A stretch of DNA of 45,566 nucleotides from Clostridiales bacterium. Lineage in GTDB: Bacteria > Bacillota > Clostridia > Lachnospirales > JAQSXR01. Below the pieces are notes generated by a model. It ran no database searches. It was not told the origin of the DNA and saw only the letters and a list, made by a program, of their open reading frames with translations. The translations under genes and the position numbers were made by a program. Below, in pieces: positions 21,161-45,561 of the stretch. Position 1 is the stretch's first letter. Every line of letters begins with the position of its first letter. The stretch spans positions 1 through 45,566 of the forward strand of contig JAQSXR010000016.1 of assembly GCA_029256575.1 (NCBI GenBank), given 5' to 3'.

Positions 21161-24100
21161 TTAAATCAAATTTGCTTTTTTTAACAATCTTCTTACAATA
21201 GCTGCTGTTTCTGCTCTTGTGATATTTTCCTTACCTGACAGCAACTTATTGTAACCAGTTATAATATCCTTATCTATACAGATTGCTGCTGACTGCTTTG
21301 CCCAACTATCTAATTTATCACTGTCTGTGTATTCACCTAACAAGGTTGTGATCTCTTGCGATGCTAACGTCATATCTATCTTTTTTATAACCTTCATTGC
21401 ACGTGAAATCATAACCATTGCTTCTTGCCTCGTTATTTTATTATTCGGGTTAAAATTATTGCCTCCAACTCCTTCAATAATACCGTACTCATAAGCAATA
21501 CTTACTGCTTCATAATACCAATCCGTTTGATAAACATCCTGGAATACAGTTTCACCTACGTTCGATCTCATAAGTCCAAGAGCTCTAACAATGATAGCTG
21601 CAAATTCAGCTCTCGTAATGTCTTTGTTAGGATCATATATATCATTATTTATCCCACTAACAATTAATCTTGAGCCCATATCATTGATATCTTCTTGTGC
21701 CCAGTGCCCTTCTAAGTCTGCAAATTCCTTCGGACTATAGATAACAGAATATGTGCTATTTGTTAAACTATTAATCTTTGCATAATGTTTTCCATCAACT
21801 ACTATAATAGTTGTTGGTACATGGGAGAAGGTTCCGTCTTCATTAAGTACAATTCCAGTCGTAATCTTCGATGAATCTATTCCATCTGGGATAGCAACCA
21901 ATCTCTCAACATACCCGTTAAACTTTGATACTGTAACCGTTTGATTATCATATGTACAGGTTATTTCAAATTCTATAGGCTTAACAACGATCCTATAATT
22001 ATTTGTGTTGGCTGTTTTCTCAATAATCTCCACTGTATCTTTGGATGGATTTGCTATGGTAACCTTCACTTGAATATCCTTTAATTCAACACCTACACCT
22101 AAATCTTCCGAAATTTTATCAATTTTGATTTGAGATGCTGGGATTGTATAGGTGACATTCTCTGTTCTCACCTCAAGAATTGCCTCTACGTTTTCCATAT
22201 CCTTAACTGTCTGTCCATTAAGCTGTCCTACTATAACATCTGATTCTGAAGCAACCGGTATTGTAACAACTGCTCCTACCCCTTCTTCTTCAAGTCTGTC
22301 TTGAATGATTTTTGCATCAACTAAAAGTGTCGTAGTCGTTCGCCCATTTTCATCTTCTGTTTCTTCTCTATTTCCTGCATTCACTTCTTTTCCGTTCACC
22401 AGGACATTCGTATATTTTTGTTCTTCTGTTGTATTCGTATTCGTGGACAATGATGTCGTTGTAAAACTCCATCTTGTTTTATCCATTATTCCAGAATAGC
22501 TATTTCCTGCTGTATCTTTAAATGCTGAGACAGCAATCTGTATATAATACTCTGTTGAACCATTCAACTCATTTGTTGGGTTAACTGTAATTACAGTTGT
22601 CCCACTACCAGTTACTTGTCCACTTGTAACATCTATTACCTCGAAAACACTGTTGTCCGATGTTTTTCTAATTGTTATGTCACCCGTTCCTTTAACTACC
22701 TTTTCATTAAATGTAATTACTAGATTGGTATTTTTGTCAACCTCTACGCTGTCATCCGTTGGAGTCACACTAGACACCATTGGAAGTACTTTGTCATTCA
22801 ATGTTTTAATTCCTGTTGTTAGTGTTGGTGATGAAGCATTTCCGGCCTGATCATAGATTGATGAGGCATCCGCTGGTTTAATTTCTATCGTTTCTGTTCC
22901 GTTTGGAATACCGCTAATTGTGAGGAAAATTCTTACGACATTTTCCCCTCCTGTCAATGCCAAAGCAGCTCCTTCGTCTTCATTATTTGCTTTCTTTATG
23001 GAGCTTATCGATACATTTGTCGCAGTCCCTGTGTTCTGAGTAAAGATTAGCACAAATTTAGCTGGTGTTAAAGCTGTCGTTCCATCACTTGCTCCATACA
23101 CTCCTTCATCAAAGATAATGTCTATGTAACCATTATTTTGAGCTAAGGTATTTGTCGCAAGGTTGGAAACATTTGGCGCTACAGAATCATATATTCTTTT
23201 CAACTGTATCGCAACGATATTATTATTTCCGGCTAAGTCTTGTGCCACTCTTTCAGATACATCTACTGTAACAATTCCTTGTCCTGATGGTGTGATTTCT
23301 GCTGTATATGTATAAGCGTTCACAATCTTGAAATTCTCTGCTATTCCATTTCCAACCGTGATGTCGCTAATTGAAAAGTCTGTCACATCCTCATCAAAAG
23401 TAAACGTAACGGATACAGGAGAAACGTTACTTAAACTAGATGCCGCTGATGTAATAGCAAGTGTCGGGGCAACTGTATCAATTAAAACGCTATTCGTAAT
23501 ACCAATATTATTTAAAGTAAGTGTCGCATTATTTGCTCCACTATCTTTTATTGTCCCACCATTTAAATCTATGTTTTGACCTATCTCAATTCCATTTGAA
23601 TCCATATTTCCAACTTGTATTATATATCTAAATTTTAGTTCATTTGTACCTGAACCACTTACATAAGTTGCATTAACCAAACCTCCCGTATTAAGAGTAA
23701 GAGCAATTGATGGTGTACCACCTGATGTATTCACTATAACTGTTTCCGAATATTTTATAATGAAGTCAAGGTTTTGTTCTGACATATAACTCCTGTTTGC
23801 AGGAACACCTACAGATGATACATTAGGTGCCACCGCATCTACAAGAACTGTAGTTAGATCACCAATCCCATTTAATGTTAGTATCGCATCATTTGTTCCA
23901 ATATCTTTTAACATTGCACCATTTAAGTTGATTTCACTACCAACTGCAACTCCATCTGTATCAAGGTTGCCTTCTTGTATCGTATATCGGAAAACAAGAG
24001 CACTTGTTCCTGTCCCCCCTATGTATGATGCATTGACTACACCACCCGTTTCGAGGGTAAGTGTTATGTATGGGGTACCACTTACAATTAAATTCTCATT

Positions 24101-27100
24101 AAAGTTAACAGTGAAGTCCATGTTTTGACCTGCTATATAAGAACCATTTGCTGGAACACTCACCGAAGATACGATCGGAGATATTGTGTCTATTTGTACT
24201 AAGGTTGTATCTCCAATATTATATAAAATTAATATTGCATTATTTGTCGCAGCATCTTTAATCGTAGCACCATTTAAGTTAATTTCAGTACCAACTATAA
24301 CGCCATCCGTATCTAGATCACCATCTTGTACCGTATATCGGAAAACAAGAGCCTTTGTACCTGTACCACCCACATATAACGCATTAACAATATCACCTGA
24401 ATCAAGTGTAATTGCAATTGATGGAATTCCTCCAACTACCAATACATTTTCATTGTACTTAACGGTAAATTCCATAATATATCCTATATTATAAATTAAA
24501 TTGGTTGGAACTGATACTGAAGAAACCATTGGTCTCGCTGCATCAACCAAAACTCCGGTTGTATTTCCAATACTATTTAATGTTAGTATTGCATTGTTTG
24601 ATACTAAATCTATAATTGTTCCACCGTTAAGATTTATAGCCTCTATAGAAATACCATTGGTATCGACATTTCCTTCTTTAACTGTATAGCGAAATGTAGG
24701 AGCACTTGTCCCTGTACCAGTTAGATAAAAAGCGTTTACAACAACACCATTATCTAAAGTGATTGGTATAAATGGTGTGCCGATAATTAATACATTTTCA
24801 TTATAATTTATAGTAAAGTCAAGATATTCACCTATTTTGTATGTCCCATTTGCCGGAACCTCTACAGAAATAACTTCTGGAGCTTTCGTATCAATAAGGA
24901 TACCAATTGTATTTCCTGTGTTATTTAGTGTTAATACGGTATTGTTTGATGCATTATCTTTTATCGTTCCTCCGTTTAATACGATCTGTGATCCAACTTC
25001 AATTCCATTTGGATCATAATTATTTGCTTCAATCGTGTATTGAAATACCAAAATATTGCTTCCGGAACCGTTCACATAAGATGCGTTCACTATACCACTG
25101 GCAAAGGTAACTGGAATATATGGTGTCCCTCCACTTGTATCTACTATTACCGCCTCATTGAAATTCAGTGTAAAACTTATATTATTGCCTGATATATATG
25201 TACCATGTGGTGGAACATCTACAGAAGATATTGTTGGTAACACCCCATCTATAAGAACTGCAGTTGGATTTCCAATCCCATTCAATGTTAATATCGCATC
25301 ATTTGTTCCAATATCTTTTATTGTTGCTCCATTTAAGTTAATTTCAGTACCAACTGTAACTCCATCCGCATCAAGGTTTCCTGCTTGTACCGTATATCGA
25401 AAAACAAGAGCACTGGTTCCTGTCCCACCAATGTATGATGCATTAACTACACCACCTGTTTCGAGGGTAAGTGCTATATATGGAGTACCACTTACTGTTA
25501 CATTCTCATTAAAGTTAACAGTGAAGTCCATATTTTGACCTGCTATATAAGAACCATCTGCTGGAACACTCGCCGAAGATACGATTGGAGATACTGTGTC
25601 TATTTGTACTAAGGTCGTGTCTCCAATATTTTTCAAATTTAACGTTGCATTATTTGTTGCAGCATCTTTAATCGTAGCACCATTTAAGTTGATCTCCGTA
25701 CCAACTATAACTCCATCCGTATCAAGATCACCATTTTGAATGGTATATCGAAAAACAAGAGCACTTGTTCCTGTACCTCCTACGTATGACGCATTGACAA
25801 TATCTCCTGAATCAAGTGTAATTGCAATTGTTGGGGTTCCTCCAACTACCAATATGTTTTCGCTGTAATTAACGGTAAACTGCAGGATATTTCCTGTGTT
25901 ATATGTTGCATTGGCTGGAACCGATACTGATGATATCGTTGGTCTCACTGCATCAATGAGAACTGAGGTTGTATTGCCAATACTATTTAATGTTAGTGTC
26001 GCATTGTTTGTTACTATATCTTTAATTGTTCCATCGTTTAGATTTATAGCCCCTATAGAAATCCCATTTGTATCTACATTTCCTTCTTGAACTGTGTAGC
26101 CAAATGTAAGAGTACTAGTCCCTGACCCAGATAGATATGTAGCGTTAACTACAACCTCATTATCTAGAGTGATTGGGATAAATGGTGTACCGGTAATAAT
26201 AACATTTTCATTGAAAGTAACCGTAAAGTCAAGATTATCACCTTCACAGTACTTCCCATTTACCGGAACCCCTACAGAAGTAACTTCTGGAACTTTCGCA
26301 TCAATTAGGATATCAGTCGTACTTCCTACGCTATTAAGTGTTAATACAGTATTGTTTGGTGCACTATCTCTTATCGTTCCACCGTTTAAAATTATCTGTG
26401 ATCCAACTTCAATTCCATTTGGATCATAATTATTCGCCTGAATCGTGTATCGAAATACCAAGATATTGCTTCCAGACCCGCTCACATAAGGTACGTTCAC
26501 TATACCACTGTCAAAGGTAATTGGAATATATGGTGTTCCACCACCTATGTTAACTATTACCGCCTCATTGAAATTCAGTGTAAAACTTATGTTATCGCCT
26601 GATATGTATGTACCGTTTGTAGGAACACCTACAGAAGATATTGTTGGTAACACCCCATCTATAAGAACTGTAGTTAAATCACCAATACTATTCAATGTTA
26701 GTAGTGCATCATTTGATCCAATATCTTTTATCGTTGCTCCATTTAAGTTAATCTCCGTACCAACTGCAACTCCATCCGCATCAAGGTTACCTGCTTGTAC
26801 TGTATATCGGAAAACAAGAGCATTTGTTCCTGTCCCACCAATGTATGAAGCATTAACTACACCACCCGTTTCGAGGGTAAGTGCAATATATGGAGTTCCA
26901 CTTACTGTTACATTCTCATTAAAGTTAACCGTGAAGTCCATGTTTTGACCTGTTATATAAGTGCCATTTGTTGGGACACTTACCGAAGATACGATTGGTG
27001 ATACGGTGTCTATATGTACTAAGGTCGTACTTCCAATACTATTTAAATCTAATGTTGCATTATTTGATGCAGCATCTTTAATCGTAGCACCATTTAAGTT

Positions 27101-28720
27101 GATTTCCGTACCTACTATAACTCCATTCGTATCAAGATCACCATCTTGTACGGTATATTGGAAAACAAGAGCACTTGTTCCTGTACCTCCTACGTATGAC
27201 GCATTGACAACATCTCCTGAATCAAGTGTAATTGCAATTGTTGGGGTTCCTCCAACTACCAATACGTTTTCGCTGTAATTAACGGTAAACTGTAGGATAT
27301 TTCCTGTGTTATATGTTGCATTGGCTGGAACCGATACTGATGATATCGTTGGTCTCACTGCATCAATCAGAACTGAGGTTGTATTACCAATACTATTTAA
27401 TGTTAATATCGCATTATTGGTTACTATATCTTTAATTGTTCCACTGTTAAGATTTATAGCACCTATAGAAATACCATTTGTATCTACATTTCCTTCTTGA
27501 ACAGTGTATCGAAAAGTAAGAGCACTTGTCCCTGAACCCGATAGATAAGTAGCATTAACTACAATCCCACTATCTAGAGTGATTGGTATAAATGGTGTAC
27601 CGATAATTGATACATTTTCATTGAAATTTACTGTAAAGTCAAGGTTTTGACCTTCTAGGTATGTCCCATTTGCCGGAACCCCTACAGAAGTAACTTCTGG
27701 AACTTTCGCATCAATTCGGACATCAGTCGTACTTCCTACGCTATTTAATGTTAGATTTGCGATGTTTCCAATACTATCATTTATCGTTGCTCCATTAAGA
27801 ACAATAGAATCTCCTAGCGTTATTCCATCCGTATCCAAATCAGGAGATTGAATGGTATATCTAAAAACAAGTTCTGTAGTACCCGTTCCACTAACATATG
27901 CTGCGTTAACGACTCCACTATTTAGATTAAGCGGAATACTAGGTATTCCTCCAGCAGTATTCACGATTACACTTTCATCATATTTCACAGTAAATTCAAG
28001 GTTTTGCATAGAAATATATGTATTAGATGAAGGAACAGTAACGGAAGAAACTGTAGGTGAAACAGTATCGGTAGGAAATAGTCTTACATCGATACCATCA
28101 AACTCGATATAATCTCCAGTACTTCCACTATTTACTATAGCAATCATTGATACTTTAATACTTCTGGTACCAACTGGTAATGATGCAATTGTCTCTGCTT
28201 TATTTTGCCATAAATTATTCTCATTTCCATCATTACTACTCACAAAATTATATGAAGTACCAATTGGTGAGTTACCTCCATCTAGACAATCAATTCTCAA
28301 TGTTCCACTTGAAGGGTCATTCCATTCTTTAACTTCAAAGTTTAAATTCAACCCTACGCTATTAGAATCAATAGCTGATGATATACTTGAAATATCTATA
28401 ATTTGATATAATGAGGCAGTAGAATAGCCTGCACTCCCCGGATAATAATCAAATATTTTACCACTATCCGAACTATCAAACTCTATGGCTAACTCGTCCC
28501 AGGTTCCTACCATCCAAATATTGGTCGGATCATCTATCGTCCACCCATTTAAGCCTTCTTCCCCATTTCCATTAACTACAATATTTGCGTTATAAGCTGT
28601 TGCATTTACTTGGATATTGGGCATTATACTGATAACAAGCGATACAATCATTATTATCGATATTAATTCCTTCATTAGTCCTTTTTTAAACCCTAATAAC
28701 TTTTTAGAATTGATTTTCAT
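21161..28720 (-). CDS. Giant secreted S-layer-anchored protein with 13 Ig-like repeats
   Basis: A 2519-residue cell-surface protein. Residues 1-42 form a signal peptide (basic start, hydrophobic LISIIMIVSLVISIM, then VNATA). Residues about 43-215 resemble a carbohydrate-binding-like beta-sandwich (NGNGEEGLNGW opening, YIEFDGIDVRLF end). Residues 219-1748 hold 13 repeats of 116-120 aa, each starting like P.VSSVSVPANGTY and ending LN.IG.TT.VLID. After that come an Ig-like domain with FTFDEDV, another with IIFDEGVYG, and a Big_5-like domain (VSSVTPTDDSVEVDKNTNLV ... WSFTT, about 1950-2070). An acidic region precedes three SLH domains at about 2330-2519 (FADLEGHWA, FQDVYQTDWYYEAV, ITRAE motifs), which bind secondary cell-wall polymer. 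AAAGGAGGAAA precedes the ATG. Ligand and partner are unknown; an adhesion or structural role is inferred. Confidence 0.93.
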   Translation of the reverse strand: MKINSKKLLGFKKGLMKELISIIMIVSLVISIMPNIQVNATAYNANIVVNGNGEEGLNGWTIDDPTNIWMVGTWDELAIEFDSSDSGKIFDYYPGSAGYSTASLYQIIDISSISSAIDSNSVGLNLNFEVKEWNDPSSGTLRIDCLDGGNSPIGTSYNFVSSNDGNENNLWQNKAETIASLPVGTRSIKVSMIAIVNSGSTGDYIEFDGIDVRLFPTDTVSPTVSSVTVPSSNTYISMQNLEFTVKYDESVIVNTAGGIPSIPLNLNSGVVNAAYVSGTGTTELVFRYTIQSPDLDTDGITLGDSIVLNGATINDSIGNIANLTLNSVGSTTDVRIDAKVPEVTSVGVPANGTYLEGQNLDFTVNFNENVSIIGTPFIPITLDSGIVVNATYLSGSGTSALTFRYTVQEGNVDTNGISIGAINLNSGTIKDIVTNNAILTLNSIGNTTSVLIDAVRPTISSVSVPANATYNTGNILQFTVNYSENVLVVGGTPTIAITLDSGDVVNASYVGGTGTSALVFQYTVQDGDLDTNGVIVGTEINLNGATIKDAASNNATLDLNSIGSTTLVHIDTVSPIVSSVSVPTNGTYITGQNMDFTVNFNENVTVSGTPYIALTLETGGVVNASYIGGTGTNALVFRYTVQAGNLDADGVAVGTEINLNGATIKDIGSNDALLTLNSIGDLTTVLIDGVLPTISSVGVPTNGTYISGDNISFTLNFNEAVIVNIGGGTPYIPITFDSGIVNVPYVSGSGSNILVFRYTIQANNYDPNGIEVGSQIILNGGTIRDSAPNNTVLTLNSVGSTTDILIDAKVPEVTSVGVPVNGKYCEGDNLDFTVTFNENVIITGTPFIPITLDNEVVVNATYLSGSGTSTLTFGYTVQEGNVDTNGISIGAINLNDGTIKDIVTNNATLTLNSIGNTTSVLIDAVRPTISSVSVPANATYNTGNILQFTVNYSENILVVGGTPTIAITLDSGDIVNASYVGGTGTSALVFRYTIQNGDLDTDGVIVGTEINLNGATIKDAATNNATLNLKNIGDTTLVQIDTVSPIVSSASVPADGSYIAGQNMDFTVNFNENVTVSGTPYIALTLETGGVVNASYIGGTGTSALVFRYTVQAGNLDADGVTVGTEINLNGATIKDIGTNDAILTLNGIGNPTAVLIDGVLPTISSVDVPPHGTYISGNNISFTLNFNEAVIVDTSGGTPYIPVTFASGIVNASYVNGSGSNILVFQYTIEANNYDPNGIEVGSQIVLNGGTIKDNASNNTVLTLNNTGNTIGILIDTKAPEVISVEVPANGTYKIGEYLDFTINYNENVLIIGTPFIPITLDNGVVVNAFYLTGTGTSAPTFRYTVKEGNVDTNGISIEAINLNGGTIIDLVSNNAILTLNSIGNTTGVLVDAARPMVSSVSVPTNLIYNIGYIMEFTVKYNENVLVVGGIPSIAITLDSGDIVNALYVGGTGTKALVFRYTVQDGDLDTDGVIVGTEINLNGATIKDAATNNAILILYNIGDTTLVQIDTISPIVSSVSVPANGSYIAGQNMDFTVNFNENLIVSGTPYITLTLETGGVVNASYIGGTGTSALVFRYTIQEGNLDTDGVAVGSEINLNGAMLKDIGTNDAILTLNGIGDLTTVLVDAVAPNVSSVGVPANRSYMSEQNLDFIIKYSETVIVNTSGGTPSIALTLNTGGLVNATYVSGSGTNELKFRYIIQVGNMDSNGIEIGQNIDLNGGTIKDSGANNATLTLNNIGITNSVLIDTVAPTLAITSAASSLSNVSPVSVTFTFDEDVTDFSISDITVGNGIAENFKIVNAYTYTAEITPSGQGIVTVDVSERVAQDLAGNNNIVAIQLKRIYDSVAPNVSNLATNTLAQNNGYIDIIFDEGVYGASDGTTALTPAKFVLIFTQNTGTATNVSISSIKKANNEDEGAALALTGGENVVRIFLTISGIPNGTETIEIKPADASSIYDQAGNASSPTLTTGIKTLNDKVLPMVSSVTPTDDSVEVDKNTNLVITFNEKVVKGTGDITIRKTSDNSVFEVIDVTSGQVTGSGTTVITVNPTNELNGSTEYYIQIAVSAFKDTAGNSYSGIMDKTRWSFTTTSLSTNTNTTEEQKYTNVLVNGKEVNAGNREETEDENGRTTTTLLVDAKIIQDRLEEEGVGAVVTIPVASESDVIVGQLNGQTVKDMENVEAILEVRTENVTYTIPASQIKIDKISEDLGVGVELKDIQVKVTIANPSKDTVEIIEKTANTNNYRIVVKPIEFEITCTYDNQTVTVSKFNGYVERLVAIPDGIDSSKITTGIVLNEDGTFSHVPTTIIVVDGKHYAKINSLTNSTYSVIYSPKEFADLEGHWAQEDINDMGSRLIVSGINNDIYDPNKDITRAEFAAIIVRALGLMRSNVGETVFQDVYQTDWYYEAVSIAYEYGIIEGVGGNNFNPNNKITRQEAMVMISRAMKVIKKIDMTLASQEITTLLGEYTDSDKLDSWAKQSAAICIDKDIITGYNKLLSGKENITRAETAAIVRRLLKKANLI
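23477..24889 (-). repeat. Super-repeat copy 3 (Ig-like domains 10-13)
   Basis: Again A-B-C plus a D-like fourth domain, but 3 nt longer and more diverged: domain 10 opens TKAPEVISVEVP, domain 11 AARPMVSSVSVP, and domain 13 (AVAPNVSSVGVP) resembles domain 1 in its VNTSGGTPSI segment. This looks like the oldest or least homogenised copy. Confidence 0.85.
24890..26299 (-). repeat. Super-repeat copy 2 (Ig-like domains 6-9)
   Basis: Same A-B-C-D order and the same 1410-bp length as copy 1. Domains 6-9 are nearly identical to 2-5 at many positions (for example both B domains share TPTIAITLDSGD), so the unit, not the single domain, was duplicated. Confidence 0.9.
26300..27709 (-). repeat. Super-repeat copy 1 (Ig-like domains 2-5)
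   Basis: Four different Ig-like repeats (A, B, C, D types; 116, 118, 117 and 119 aa) form a 470-aa, 1410-bp unit. Type A opens AKVPEVTSVGVP, B AVRPTISSVSVP, C TVSPIVSSVSVP, D GVLPTISSVGVP. Domain 1 (27710-28066) is a separate D-like copy ahead of it. Confidence 0.9.
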
Positions 28721-38890: not shown

Positions 38891-40279
38891 CTAAAATTCG
38901 AATTTATCATCAAAATATGCTTTTAAATCTTTTATAGCAATTCTTTCTTGTTCCATTGAATCACGATGTCTTACCGTTACGCAACCATCGTTTTCTGTTT
39001 CAAAATCATATGTGATACAGAAAGGTGTACCAATTTCATCTTGTCTTCTATATCTTTTACCAATATTTCCTCTTTCATCAAATTCACAATTATATCTTTT
39101 TGAAAGCATTTTATAAACTTCATTTGCTCCATCGGATAATTTCTTTGACAATGGGAAGATACCAATCTTTACTGGAGCTAAGGCTGGATGGAATCGTAAC
39201 ACTGTACGAACGTCACCTTCACCAAGTTCTTCTTCATCATATGCTTCACAAAGGAAAGCAAGTGTTACTCTATCTGCACCAAGTGATGGCTCAATAACAT
39301 AAGGAATATAGTTGATTCTCTTTTCATCATCAAAGTATTCCATACTTTCTTTTGAATGATCTTGATGTTGTTTTAAGTCGTAATCCGTTCTATCAGCGAT
39401 TCCCCATAATTCTCCCCAACCAAATGGGAATAAGAATTCTATGTCTGAGGTAGCTTTACTGTAGAAGGATAGCTCTTCTGCATCATGATCACGAACACGC
39501 ATATTTTCTTCTTTTATTCCAAGTGTTTGTAAGAAGTTAACGCATGTATTTTTCCAGTAATCAAACCATTCTAAATCTGTATCTGGTTCGCAGAAAAATT
39601 CTAATTCCATTTGCTCAAATTCTCTTGTTCTGAATGTAAAGTTTCCTGGAGTTATTTCATTTCTAAATGATTTACCAATTTGACCAATTCCAAACGGTAT
39701 TTTCTTTCTTGATGTTCTTTGAACATTTTTAAAATTTACAAAAATACCTTGTGCTGTTTCTGGTCTTAAGAATACTACATTTTTTGCATCTTCTGTAACA
39801 CCTTGGAATGTTTTAAACATAAGATTAAATTGTCTTATATCTGTAAAGTTATGAGCTCCGCAGCTTGGACACTTAATACTGTGTTCTTCAATAAAATTTT
39901 TCATTTCTTCATGAGACCAAGCATCAACGGAACCTTCTACTGCAATTCCTTTTTCAGCTGTATAATCTTCAATAACTTTGTCTGCTCTAAATCTTTCATT
40001 ACAAGCTTTACAGTCCATAAGTGGATCTGCAAATCCTCCAACGTGACCTGATGCAACCCATACTTGTGGGTTCATTAGAATAGCGCAGTCAACACCAACA
40101 TTGAATTCACTTTCTGTAACGAATTTTGACCACCAAGCTTTTTTTACATTATTCTTTAGCTCTACTCCAAGATTACCATAATCCCAAGTATTTGCAAGGC
40201 CACCATATATTTCTGAGCCAGGATAAACAAATCCTCTTGTCTTTGCTAAAGAAACTATTCTTTCCATAGTCTTTTCCAT
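38891..40279 (-). CDS. glyS: Glycyl-tRNA synthetase (single-chain, GlyQS type)
   Basis: About 462 residues, the dimeric eukaryotic-like class II GlyRS. The N-terminal [20 protein letters not shown] is diagnostic. Motif 2 is [20 protein letters not shown]; motif 3 is [14 protein letters not shown]. The anticodon-binding domain follows ([14 protein letters not shown] to the end). Start at the ATG at 40279: GAAGGGA lies about 11 nt upstream, and an upstream in-frame ATG overlaps this site. It is preceded by a T-box leader, so expression should rise when tRNA-Gly is uncharged. Confidence 0.96.
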
Positions 40280-40334
40280 TTTGTGAACCATCCCTTCTAT
40301 TCTTATTTCTATTATATCCAAGTTCTTTTAAAAA

Positions 40335-40561
40335 TAAAAAAAGAACCCCTACTCATCAAGGGACGAAATTTCTTCCGCGGTTCCACCCTTGTTGATAGTT
40401 AGTCCTATCCACTTTTAGAAATAAGGTTAATAATCCTTATTCAATGATACTCGCAAGTGCCTTTTCGTTATTATAACAGTCCTAGCTTTCACCATCCTAG
40501 ACTCGCTTTACAGCCATTTCAAACTACTTTTCTTGGTCATCATATCCATAATTCATTTGTT
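40335..40561 (-). ncRNA. T-box leader (glycine) of glyS
   Basis: The minus strand carries the conserved T-box AAGGGTGGAACCGCGG (40375-40390), a Stem I distal element (AGCGAGT ... GGTGAAAG, about 40480-40505), and a candidate specifier GGC followed by AC at 40459-40461, matching a glycine codon. A terminator-like CCCT...AGGGG element with a seven-T run (about 40336-40365) lies after the T-box. The overall fold was not computed. Confidence 0.9.
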
Positions 40562-40776: not shown

Positions 40777-41730
40777 GTGTCCACATTGATAGATATTTCA
40801 GATAAAATAAAAAATAAGCTAAAACAGTTTCCTAAACTTCCTGGAATATATAAAATGCTTGATTCCAATGGAAATATAATCTACATCGGCAAAAGCAAAT
40901 GCCTCAAAATAAGAGTAAAATCATATTTTACTAACTCGCCAAGATGGAATAAGGTAAAAACTATGGTTTTATTCATTGATGATATTGATTTTATCGTTAC
41001 TGACACTCACTTAGAGGCAAGATTACTAGAATGTGAACTTATCAAACATATCAAACCTCACTTTAATGCCCAAATGAAGAATGACAGTAAATACTTTTAT
41101 CTAAAAATAGATGACTATAATTATTTTAATTCATTATCTATTGTCTCCGAAAGAGAGGCAAATACTTATGGTCCTTTCAGAAAAATGTCATCTATCTCAA
41201 ATGTAATTGATTTATTAAAACAAATTTACCCAATTGATAAAACTGATAGAAGTTATTCCTTCGAATATCATATATTTCCAATATCTATGGAGAAAGGCAT
41301 CTTTAACCAAAATCGCTGTGTATTATTTGAATTATTTGATAATGAAAAAAATATGAAGAAACTTATTAAGGTGTTAGAATCAAAAATGAAAGAATCTGCA
41401 ACATCATATAAATTCGAAGTTGCCGCAAAATACAGAGATATTATTCAGGGGCTAAATTACTTAAGCAAAGGGATTTATCAATACAAAAAATTTATGACAA
41501 AAGAAATTGTAATGAAGATACCTATTAACCAAGGAATCAAACTTTTCTTCATATCTAATGGGAATATGCTGTTAAAGAAGTATTTTGATACCTTGAGTGA
41601 TGAAGATATTGCTAGTTTTGTTAATGAAGGTAAGCAACTAAAATCATCATTGAATGTAGACTTAAGCGAAAAAGCAAATATTGATTTTCTTGATATCTTG
41701 TATTCAGAAGTAAAAGCAAATAAGGTATAA
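40777..41730 (+). CDS. Shortened UvrC-like GIY-YIG nuclease with UVR motif
   Basis: A 317-residue protein equivalent to the N-terminal half of UvrC. The GIY-YIG domain lies at about 15-95: LPGIYKMLDSNGNIIYIGKS, catalytic Arg region LKIRVKSYF, and Glu in LEARLLECELIK. A UVR (UvrB-binding) helix pair is at about 200-230 (MKESATSYKFEVAAKYRDII). The C-terminal RNase H-like nuclease and HhH domains of full UvrC (about 600 aa) are absent. It resembles Cho-type UvrC homologues but keeps a UVR motif. The start is uncertain: GTG at 40777 is close to AAAGGA, and TTG at 40786 is better spaced from AGGTG. It probably makes the 3' incision in nucleotide excision or has a specialised role. Confidence 0.85.
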   Translation: MSTLIDISDKIKNKLKQFPKLPGIYKMLDSNGNIIYIGKSKCLKIRVKSYFTNSPRWNKVKTMVLFIDDIDFIVTDTHLEARLLECELIKHIKPHFNAQMKNDSKYFYLKIDDYNYFNSLSIVSEREANTYGPFRKMSSISNVIDLLKQIYPIDKTDRSYSFEYHIFPISMEKGIFNQNRCVLFELFDNEKNMKKLIKVLESKMKESATSYKFEVAAKYRDIIQGLNYLSKGIYQYKKFMTKEIVMKIPINQGIKLFFISNGNMLLKKYFDTLSDEDIASFVNEGKQLKSSLNVDLSEKANIDFLDILYSEVKANKV

Positions 41731-41733
41731 ATT

Positions 41734-41768
41734 GAGGAACCATATGTTAATGTGTATAGGTTCTTCTC
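41734..41768. terminator. Hairpin between the UvrC-like gene and the siderophore operon
   Basis: Imperfect stem GAGGAACCATA / TATAGGTTCTTC with a 10-nt loop lies between convergent genes, 4 nt past the UvrC-like stop. The T run is weak. Confidence 0.45.
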
Positions 41769-41817
41769 AGTGGCTTCAGTTATATATCCTTTTTTCCTTG
41801 ATTTCTATCTGGCCAAC

Positions 41818-42423
41818 TCAAACACTCGGAGCACCCTCACATACGATTTTCCCTTGTTTTAAACCAATAATATTATCTGCAAAGCGGCAAGAGTTATTCA
41901 ATTCATGAAGTACTACAACAATCGTTGTCCCTCTTTCGCGATTCATCTTTTGAAGCAATTGTAGTATTTCAAGTTGATACGACATATCAAGGTAGGTAGT
42001 TGGTTCATCCAGCAAGATGATCTCAGTTTCCTGGGCCAATGTCATAGCAATCCACGCCCAATTGATTATATCTTTATCATGTGAAGTCAATCCACCAATA
42101 GTTTTTTGATGCGGGAATCTTCCATATGCAATTAATTCTCTGACTGACAATCCATCTGGACATTTTGGCCCTTGCGGAAGTACTGCAACCTGAGTTGCTA
42201 TTTTTTTTGGTTTTTGATGTTTTATATCGTTACCATTTATGTATATCTTACCTTTTTGAGGTTTTAGAATTCGTGCTATTGTCTTAAGTAGTGTTGATTT
42301 TCCGCAACCATTGGCTCCAATAATAATCGAAACTTTTCCCGTTGGAATTGTCAAGTTCATATTATCTAATACCAAATTCTTTTCATATGCAACGGATAAA
42401 TTATTAACAGTAATTGCTTCCAT
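41818..42423 (-). pseudogene. Siderophore ABC transporter ATPase lacking its signature motif (FecE/FhuC-like)
   Basis: About 201 residues instead of the usual 250-270. The start (ITVNNLSVAYEKNLVLDNMN), Walker A GANGCGKST, Q-loop VLPQGPKCPDGLSVRELIAY, Walker B IILLDEPTTYLD and H-loop VLHELN are all intact. But the sequence runs SHDKDIINWA directly into WIAMTLAQ: the roughly 24 residues carrying the C-loop (normally LSGGQRQR) are missing, an in-frame deletion at about 42054-42057. The C-terminus also stops early after VCEGAPSV. Without the C-loop an ABC dimer cannot hydrolyse ATP normally, so the product is probably inactive. Start 42423: AAAGGAG lies just upstream. It is the last gene of the siderophore operon. 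Confidence 0.8.
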
Positions 42424-42482
42424 TATATCTCCTTTCATATATAAAAACTCATATTTCTATTCTCTCATAAATATTTCGTATT

Positions 42483-43490
42483 CTATTCCTTCATCAATAA
42501 ATATATAAAATATGGTACTCCAAAAATAGAAACTATTATTCCAACCGGTATCTCAATTGGTGAAAATAAATTCCTTGAAACTGCATCTGCAATCAGGATA
42601 ATAACAGTGCTTATCAGTGCAGAGATTATTATAAAATTCTTATGATAGGGACCAACTAACTTTCTAGCAATATGTGGTGATATCAAACCAAGGAATCCTA
42701 TATTACCTGCGAATGCCGTTGCGCATCCTGCCAAGATTACTGCACAACTAAGCATTTTCTTTCTCTCTTTTTCCACATTAATACCTAGTCCAACAGCAAT
42801 TTCGTCCGTTAAATTCATAACATCCATTGTCTTATGTTTCAATAAAACATATATAAAAACAACTGCTACAATCGGAAGTAAAATCTTTACATAAGCCCAA
42901 CTTGAGCCCCAAAGACTCCCAGCTGTCCAAACTAGTACTCGATTATAATCTCCTACACCGCCTCGAAAAGTAAAAAATGTAATAAAAGCGTTAAGCCCTG
43001 CATTTACACCAATTCCAATTAACAGCATTCTCCTTGGTTTCATACCTTTTCTACTAGATAGAAAATATATTATAAGAGCAGCACAAGTTGCTCCAATAAC
43101 TGCCATGAACGGAAGAACGTATGTAGATAATTTACCTAACTCACTATAATAGTCTACAGTTTGATAGGATATAAAGATTACTGCTGCCACTGCTGCCCCT
43201 GCATTAATTCCAATAATTCCAGAATCTGCTAGGTCATTTTTCATAATGGTTTGCAGAATACACCCAGCTGTTGACAAAGCAATTCCTACAAACATTCCAA
43301 CAAGAATTCTTGGTAATCTAATTTGCAGAATTGATATATTCTGCATCTTACTACCTTGTCCTGATAGAGTCTTAATTATATCTCTCACCGATATTTCATA
43401 ACTTCCCCAAGACAAGCAAACGATGATTGCAAGAAGGACAAGGATTCCTAAACAAATACTGACATAGATATATTTTCTATTTCTCATCAT
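42483..43490 (-). CDS. Iron-siderophore ABC transporter permease (FecCD family)
   Basis: A 335-residue membrane protein with about ten helices. FecCD family stretches are present: ILQIRLPRILVGMFVGIALS, TAGCILQTIMKNDLADSGII, GINAGAAVAAV, and NIGFLGLISPHIARKLVGP, the cytoplasmic loop that contacts the ATPase. EIPVGIIVSIFGVPYFIYLL closes it. The 5' end overlaps the upstream permease by 4 nt, so the two are coupled and probably form a heterodimeric channel. Intact, unlike the ATPase downstream. Confidence 0.95.
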   Translation of the reverse strand: MMRNRKYIYVSICLGILVLLAIIVCLSWGSYEISVRDIIKTLSGQGSKMQNISILQIRLPRILVGMFVGIALSTAGCILQTIMKNDLADSGIIGINAGAAVAAVIFISYQTVDYYSELGKLSTYVLPFMAVIGATCAALIIYFLSSRKGMKPRRMLLIGIGVNAGLNAFITFFTFRGGVGDYNRVLVWTAGSLWGSSWAYVKILLPIVAVVFIYVLLKHKTMDVMNLTDEIAVGLGINVEKERKKMLSCAVILAGCATAFAGNIGFLGLISPHIARKLVGPYHKNFIIISALISTVIILIADAVSRNLFSPIEIPVGIIVSIFGVPYFIYLLMKE

Positions 43491-44479
43491 CCTCGCTCCT
43501 TTCTCGCTATCCCAATAAAGAATGGGATTCCAATTAACGCCGTAAATATTCCAATTGGTGTCTCGTAGGGTGCGTACAACATTCTAGCCGCAATATCTGC
43601 AAACGTTAATAATACTGCTCCTAGCAAGAACGAGCAAGGAATGTTTCGTCTGTAATCTTCTCCCAAAAGCCTTCTAGTGATTTGTGGAATAATCAATCCT
43701 ACAAATCCGATGTTTTTTCCGACTGCAACAGCAGCTGCACACATAGGAATCATAACAAGTAATGTCACGAAACGAATTCGACCTGGATTCTCTCCCAATC
43801 CGATTGCTACATCATCTCCAAGACTTAATATATTTATTTTTTTTGCTAAAAGCATACCGACTAGTAAACCAGGAATACCCACTACCATAATTAATCTAAC
43901 ATCATCCCATGAGGCATTACGAAATCCCCCTGCTACCCAGAATGCAATCATCTGAGAACGATTGGTTAATAATCCTATTACTGTCGTTAGTGATATAAAA
44001 AAAGTACTCATTGCTGTTCCAGCTAATAATAGCCTTGAAATCGACATATTCCCTGGGTTTTTCGAGGTAAAGCTTATTACAATCAATCCACTCGCAAGTG
44101 CTCCGATAAGGGCAGCAATCATAACACTTTGAGTATTTATACTTATTTGGAGCGCATAAAAAATTGCAATTACAAGCGTCGCCCCTTGACTCACTCCAAG
44201 TAACGATGGCTCTGCAATCGGATTTCTCGTAACTCCCTGAATCATAGCACCCGTTGCTCCCAAAACACCCCCTGCGAATAATACGCAAAGGGCTCTTGGA
44301 ATTCGTACATCTCTAATTAGCATTAAATCTAAGGTTTCTTCATACTGAAAAATACTATTCCATATTTCTTTCACACCAATTTGTACTGCTCCTAGACTTA
44401 CCGCTAAGAATAAACCCAGAGTTAGCATCGACATACTACTGATGAAAAAAAATAGAGTTTTCTTATTTCTTAGTTCCAT
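43487..44479 (-). CDS. Iron-siderophore ABC transporter permease (FecCD family)
   Basis: A 330-residue FecCD permease with about ten helices. The DVRIPRALCVLFAGGVLGAT start of the channel domain, MIQGVTRNPIAEPSLLGVSQ (signature), NIGFVGLIIPQITRRLLGED and ETPIGIFTALIGIPFFIGIA are visible. It overlaps the binding-protein gene by 17 nt upstream and the second permease by 4 nt downstream. Its GGAG site is inside the end of the binding-protein gene. The two permeases are related but clearly diverged, as usual for heterodimers. Confidence 0.95.
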   Translation of the reverse strand: MELRNKKTLFFFISSMSMLTLGLFLAVSLGAVQIGVKEIWNSIFQYEETLDLMLIRDVRIPRALCVLFAGGVLGATGAMIQGVTRNPIAEPSLLGVSQGATLVIAIFYALQISINTQSVMIAALIGALASGLIVISFTSKNPGNMSISRLLLAGTAMSTFFISLTTVIGLLTNRSQMIAFWVAGGFRNASWDDVRLIMVVGIPGLLVGMLLAKKINILSLGDDVAIGLGENPGRIRFVTLLVMIPMCAAAVAVGKNIGFVGLIIPQITRRLLGEDYRRNIPCSFLLGAVLLTFADIAARMLYAPYETPIGIFTALIGIPFFIGIARKERG

Positions 44480-45464
44480 CTATCATCTCCAAGATTTCAT
44501 CTAATAATAATTCCCTTCCTATAGAACTATATCCTTGGTTAAAGTAAGGTGAAGATCCTAGCGTTACCACATTACCTTCTTTTACAGCCGGAAGGTTATT
44601 CCAAATTGCATTACCTTCTAATTGTGCTAAATCATCCGTAGTAGCAAGAACAAAAATATAATCTGCTTCGATTGCTGCTAACCCTTCATAAGTAACAACT
44701 GGTAAACTAATATCGCTTTGTTCTGGCATTCCAACTGGCGCTTGAAGTCCCATATCTTCATACAAAACGCTTCCAAATCCAGCTCCGTCGAATACATAAA
44801 ACTGTCCACCACTTGCAAGGAAGGATAAGTAACTAACATCATCTCCTAAACTAGCTTTAATAGTTTCTCCAGCTTTCTTTGCTTTTAAGTCGTATTCTGC
44901 AATCCAAGCTTCTGCTACCTCAACTTTACCAAAAACCTCGGCAAACGTAATAATATCGTCTTTCCAATTTAATGCTTCAAGTTGAATCATAATAGTCGGT
45001 GCAATCGCTTTTAACTGCTCATACATCTTCTCTTGAACTGTTGAGATAATGATTAAGTCTGGTTCAACATTAATAACTGCTTCAATATCCATTGTATCTT
45101 GCATGCTATAACCCAAAATACTTGCACCTTTTAAAGTTTCTTCCAAATAAGTAGGAAACTTCGTATAATCATAAGCATCACTGTTTGCTGTTCCAACTAC
45201 TGAATAACCTAAGATAGATAAAATATCACTGTTTCCACTTAAATCTACGATTCTTTCTGGGTTAGCTGGAATCTCAACTTCACCTTTTACATCAATTACT
45301 GTTACTTTATCTGCAACATTCTCATTAACATCTGAATTAGTAACTTCTCCCGTACTTCCTGTAACTACATCTTTATCCTTTGTAGTTCTACCACAACCGG
45401 CAAGCAACAAAACAGTAAGACAACCTGTAACCACTATTCTAATTAATAACCTTTTTTCTCTCAT
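44463..45464 (-). CDS. Iron-siderophore binding lipoprotein
   Basis: A 333-residue FecB/FhuD-type extracellular binding protein. The signal peptide ends in a lipobox (LLLAGC, Cys at about 24) followed by a Thr/Asp/Glu-rich spacer. The mature domain has VKGEVEIPANPERIVDLSGN, GYSVVGT, EAVINVEPDLIIIS, IMIQLEALNW and YIFVLATTDD, the two-lobed class III fold with a long linking helix. It delivers ferric siderophore to the two permeases. First gene of the operon, with GTGAGG before the ATG and promoter and operator-like palindromes upstream. Confidence 0.93.
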   Translation of the reverse strand: MREKRLLIRIVVTGCLTVLLLAGCGRTTKDKDVVTGSTGEVTNSDVNENVADKVTVIDVKGEVEIPANPERIVDLSGNSDILSILGYSVVGTANSDAYDYTKFPTYLEETLKGASILGYSMQDTMDIEAVINVEPDLIIISTVQEKMYEQLKAIAPTIMIQLEALNWKDDIITFAEVFGKVEVAEAWIAEYDLKAKKAGETIKASLGDDVSYLSFLASGGQFYVFDGAGFGSVLYEDMGLQAPVGMPEQSDISLPVVTYEGLAAIEADYIFVLATTDDLAQLEGNAIWNNLPAVKEGNVVTLGSSPYFNQGYSSIGRELLLDEILEMIDGTKK

Positions 45465-45546: not shown

Positions 45547-45561
45547 CGATAATAATTATCA
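45547..45561. promoter_or_regulatory. Fur-type box
   Basis: CGATAATAATTATCA matches 14 of 15 positions of the 7-1-7 Fur-family consensus TGATAATNATTATCA. It lies about 10 nt upstream of the operon's -35 element and close to the window edge, so it could also serve a divergent gene outside the window. Confidence 0.75.

Follow-up and report, generated by a model that had tools for sequence, protein, structure and literature searches.

The ATP sites of ABC ATPases are shared between subunits, each site being completed by the signature of the partner, and in FecE/FhuC-type ATPases the helical subdomain makes the contact with the permease. This type is represented by the FecE (PRK11231) and FhuC (PRK10575) profiles and by the solved FhuC structure 7lb8. 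In S. aureus, FhuC powers the SirABC, HtsABC and IsdEF systems, none of which has its own ATPase (PMC10147376). The same paper reports an AxxxG motif for the IsdF coupling helix and shows that this helix does not by itself determine partner choice by FhuC. The ATPase described here is like the FecE/FhuC type in sequence, in its motifs other than the signature and in its position after two FecCD permeases. It differs in being without a 25-residue signature segment and the C-terminal 36–40 residues, and in scoring below the curated cut-offs. With bacterial pseudogenes generated by short-homology deletion it has in common an isolated in-frame deletion, a second lesion, intact orthologues and perhaps mildly relaxed constraint, but its frame is open over 201 codons and its overall dN is not raised. 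As in the S. aureus systems, a binding protein and permeases stand apparently without a working local ATPase and another intact FecCD-type ATPase is encoded in the genome; here, however, the broken local gene is still present, and ATPase sharing is a candidate.

The window (the whole stretch of 45 566 nucleotides that was analysed) carries a minus-strand siderophore-type operon close to the right contig end, in the order substrate-binding protein, two FecCD permeases and ATPase. About 100 bp of sequence lies upstream of the operon before the contig stops at 45566. The substrate-binding protein (44463..45464, minus strand, 333 aa; PF01497, 88 bits), the FecC-like permease (43487..44479, minus strand, 330 aa; PF01032, 304 bits) and the FecD-like permease (42483..43490, minus strand, 335 aa; PF01032, 318 bits) are all full length, and were rightly described as intact in the first-pass annotation. 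A Fur-box-like sequence upstream of the operon (45547..45561) has one mismatch to the consensus. It is not significant window-wide, 1.2 matches with two mismatches or fewer being expected by chance per window, so that iron control of the operon is putative. The ATPase gene is preceded by a spacer of 59 bp (42424..42482, minus strand) with its own GAAAGGAG ribosome-binding-like site. By comparison, the spacer measures 0–6 bp in 45 of 48 relatives and 61 and 256 bp in two others, and was not located in one. The 59-bp spacer is A+T-rich, and its ribosome-binding-like site is new with respect to the tight junction of most relatives.

The ATPase gene (41818..42423, minus strand, 201 codons and a stop) was delimited by ORF prediction, profile search and alignment with relatives. 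The frame 41818-42438 (minus strand) is open for 206 codons and the ATG at 42423 matches the start in relatives, which gives a protein of 201 aa; the 201 codons contain no stop or frameshift. Aligned with relatives, the protein shows a gap of exactly 25 residues, bordered by residues 1-123 on one side and 124-201 on the other. The missing block (25 codons, 75 bp) is in frame, lies between W122-A123 and W124 (junction at 42054..42055, minus strand) and contains the ABC signature LSGGQRQR; in relatives the lost stretch resembles AIEETGLxxFADREVENLSGGQRQR. The gap has the same size against all 43 relatives placed by breakpoint comparison, the other 7 of the 50 being unmatched by the search string. 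An in-frame loss of the signature segment had been claimed in the first-pass annotation and is borne out, with a measured size of 75 bp instead of the approximately 72 bp given there. Judged from relatives, the two breakpoints have little more in common than an alanine codon (GCN), and no long repeat common to both was found. A deletion between very short repeats would thus be the simplest origin.

The motif check, all on the minus strand, located Walker A (GANGCGKST, 42292..42318), the Q-loop (42166-42180), Walker B (IILLDEP, 42001..42021), the D-loop (TTYLD, 41986-42000) and the H-loop (VLHEL, 41899-41913). Four of the motifs expected of a functional FecE/FhuC (Walker A, Q-loop, Walker B and H-loop) are therefore kept, as had been claimed, while the LSGGQ signature is absent and the length is 201 aa against 259–275 aa in the 47 relatives with a complete frame. 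The best NCBIfam match is PRK11231 (FecE), in two stretches (230.6 bits against a curated cut-off of 375), and the FhuC profile gives 165 bits against a curated cut-off of 433, although distant intact members may fall short too.

The protein also ends 36–40 residues early, as measured on relatives of 262–266 aa; the C-terminal loss had been recognized before but overestimated at about 50 residues. The place of the last 36–40 residues of relatives is taken by a non-coding stretch (41731..41817, shuffle test), and these 87 bp separate the ATPase stop from a convergent UvrC-like gene. Alignment of the 87 bp to the tails of relatives gave no significant C-terminal remnant. A candidate remnant in another frame was rejected, 49 of 200 shuffles having aligned as well. 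That the ATPase 3' end holds a repeat or mobile element was rejected too, no other copy having been found in the genome (best other match 31.9 bits, E 0.09).

The UvrC-like neighbour (317 aa, 40777-41730, plus strand) has GIY-YIG and UVR motifs and is below full UvrC length. It was rejected as a second victim of the deletion, its 58–60% identical orthologues covering residues 2-312 of 317. Since orthologues at this identity occur in 4 of 146 same-order genomes, the short form is considered stable; contig C62 carries a further match of UvrC size, in a frame of 630 aa. In none of the three orthologue loci examined is the UvrC-like gene next to the siderophore operon. Elsewhere in the window, an ordinary T-box leader (40356-40549, minus strand; RF00230, 100.8 bits) precedes the glycyl-tRNA synthetase gene (38891-40321), and a 2519-aa protein (21161-28720, minus strand) with three SLH stretches and Big-type Ig-like domains is probably a cell-surface protein.

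Relatives of the operon were collected by scanning genome contigs with the upstream permease. This gave 53 loci, 52 of them at 64–77% identity and one outlier from Paenibacillus (L085) at 34%. An ATPase stands at the operon end in 50 of the 53 loci, and LSGGQ is present in all 50. The first-pass annotation had raised the case of relatives that also lack LSGGQ; there are 0 among these 50. Forty-seven of the ATPase frames are complete (259–275 aa), two run off the contig (L077, L079) and one changes frame (L078). In the last, from Cellulosilyticum ruminicola JCM 14822 (L078 6581-7287), the orthologous ATPase shifts frame right after the signature (QRQRAWIA), which is either an error of sequencing or another instance of decay. 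The same-order search matched 10 of 295 genomes at E 1e-45, G000 counted, the one genome of its genus and family in the set searched; LSGGQ is also present in the ATPase of the same-order genome L104. The lesion, which would be disabling, was thus not found in readable orthologues, as expected of a pseudogene. Among the titles listed in the literature search, none describes a siderophore importer ATPase that has naturally lost its signature segment.

The 201-aa ATPase was modelled with AlphaFold from an alignment of 31 relatives, with the intact relative L049 as control. Mean pLDDT was 75.3, with residues 85-120 (helical subdomain) under 50, against 90.2 for L049, in which only residues 106-109 were under 50. 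In the models, the helices flanking the lost block are fused into a single helix (114-130), where L049 has two (114-126 and 142-154), and the ATP-binding core is kept in both proteins. A fold search with the 201-aa protein confirmed an ABC ATPase fold and nothing further.

Selective constraint was compared between the ATPase and the permeases. For counts at invariant sites, the distant L085 was removed beforehand and subjects with a stop or less than 90% coverage were left out, so that 49 (ATPase), 51 (FecD), 52 (FecC) and 52 (binding protein) relatives were kept of 53 subjects; trees and rate tests were restricted to the 48 taxa present in all four gene sets, this operon included. Conserved sites are replaced at 13 of 117 positions in the ATPase and at 12 of 305 in the permeases (one-sided Fisher P 0.007, uncorrected for 48 looks). 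This excess is the largest among the 48 lineages, with L076, whose ATPase is intact, near in the same measure (P 0.020). The ratio of the ATPase terminal branch to the mean of the permeases is 1.34 (median 0.71 in 26 other lineages), and lineages with an intact ATPase come near (1.24, 1.21, 1.10). Six of 77 otherwise invariant ATPase sites are changed, all mildly, against 1 of 87 and 0 of 101 in the permeases. The dN to three relatives is 0.18–0.21 for the ATPase and 0.19–0.22 for the permeases; dS is saturated, so that a dN/dS comparison cannot date the loss. Taken together, the open frame, a dN like that of the permeases and the few mild changes suggest that constraint acted on the ATPase through most of its history, the lesions being young relative to the branch.

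Two separate lesions in one gene, not seen in readable relatives, make recent inactivation the best reading, together with the excess of replaced conserved sites and the low-confidence helical subdomain of the model. The gene is very probably the operon's own FecE/FhuC-type ATPase gene after a recent inactivation, and the importer is then not self-powered but either dead or powered in trans. An in-frame deletion of 75 bp would have taken out the signature segment, and a separate event would have taken off the C-terminal tail. Because each signature completes the ATP site of the partner, a homodimer without signatures may be able to bind ATP but would not be expected to hydrolyse it, as judged from knowledge of the family. 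Loss of hydrolysis would in turn leave the importer without power of its own. It would then be dead, or else served by the only further FecCD-type ATPase that the genome encodes, the former being a little more likely. Intact permeases would be explained, in a dead importer, by a young loss, and the frame open over 201 codons together with a dN that is not raised argues for such a loss. The loss of hydrolysis, the sequence in which the lesions arose and the importer's present state are all inferred. Ordinary gene decay is the most likely process; points against it are the open frame, the kept ATP-binding motifs, the ribosome-binding-like site before the ATG, the mildness of the six changes at invariant sites, a dN equal to that of the permeases and the closeness in rate measures of some lineages with an intact ATPase.

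Service in trans was considered in the light of the other systems of the genome. Three FecCD permeases are above the Pfam cut-off in the assembly: two in this operon and one on contig C36. The latter is accompanied by a binding protein and a 255-aa ATPase in which Walker A, LSGGQ and Walker B are intact. This ATPase is the top FecE-profile match of the genome outside the window (187.9 bits; next, 126.8). The earlier proposal of a dead importer or of an ATPase from another locus fits these data, and an intact ATPase of the cognate type exists; a close orphan FecE/FhuC, for which a search had been advised, was not found in the assembly, where the remaining matches are far lower and 25–47% identical over parts. 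With the assembly 95% complete, such an orphan could be missing from it. The C36 ATPase may tentatively be proposed to power the permeases of this operon, as FhuC does for Sir, Hts and Isd in S. aureus (PMC10147376), the local ATPase being redundant and decaying. This is one of the two branches of the preferred reading and is compatible with it. In its favour, the intact ATPase stands alongside its own permease and binding protein, the operon permeases are 35% and 32% identical to the C36 permease and 29% to each other, and they are conserved while the local ATPase drifts. An AxxxG motif is also present in both operon permeases and in the C36 permease, at a place matching the IsdF motif reported in PMC10147376. 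Against it, that paper shows the coupling helix to be insufficient to determine FhuC partner choice, the C36 and local ATPases share only 35% identity, and the permeases would be intact after a young loss anyway.

An assembly or strain-mixture artefact, the organism having the 75 bp and the tail, is very unlikely. The sequence does come from one draft assembly of 64 contigs, with a single genome representing the genus and family. However, the loss is exactly in frame, the breakpoints as judged from relatives have no long repeat in common, the deletion site is set back 3.5 kb from the contig end, and the 3' end of the ATPase gene carries another change unrelated to the first. Still less credit is given to the idea, already raised in the first-pass annotation, that the shortened protein is kept as a non-hydrolysing ATP-binding partner in an asymmetric dimer with another ATPase: Walker A, the Q-loop, Walker B and the H-loop are kept, the frame is open behind its own ribosome-binding-like site and overall dN is not raised, but the helical subdomain is cut and modelled at low confidence, the C-terminus is lost too, losses at conserved sites are raised and none of the 50 readable relatives has a signature-less form, which leaves the idea without positive support. 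Equally improbable is its extension, that the signature-less ATPase was selected as an ATP-binding subunit pairing with the C36-system ATPase and coupling both importers.

Recent inactivation of the operon's own ATPase is thus retained as the preferred reading. Annotation pipelines may well label this ATPase as working because its frame is open and the motifs on either side of the gap match. As a decaying gene, it is an ordinary case. If the importer is still used, the locus would capture, in nature, a siderophore importer in the course of exchanging its own ATPase for a shared one before the old gene has gone, and FhuC-served systems may have gone through such a step.
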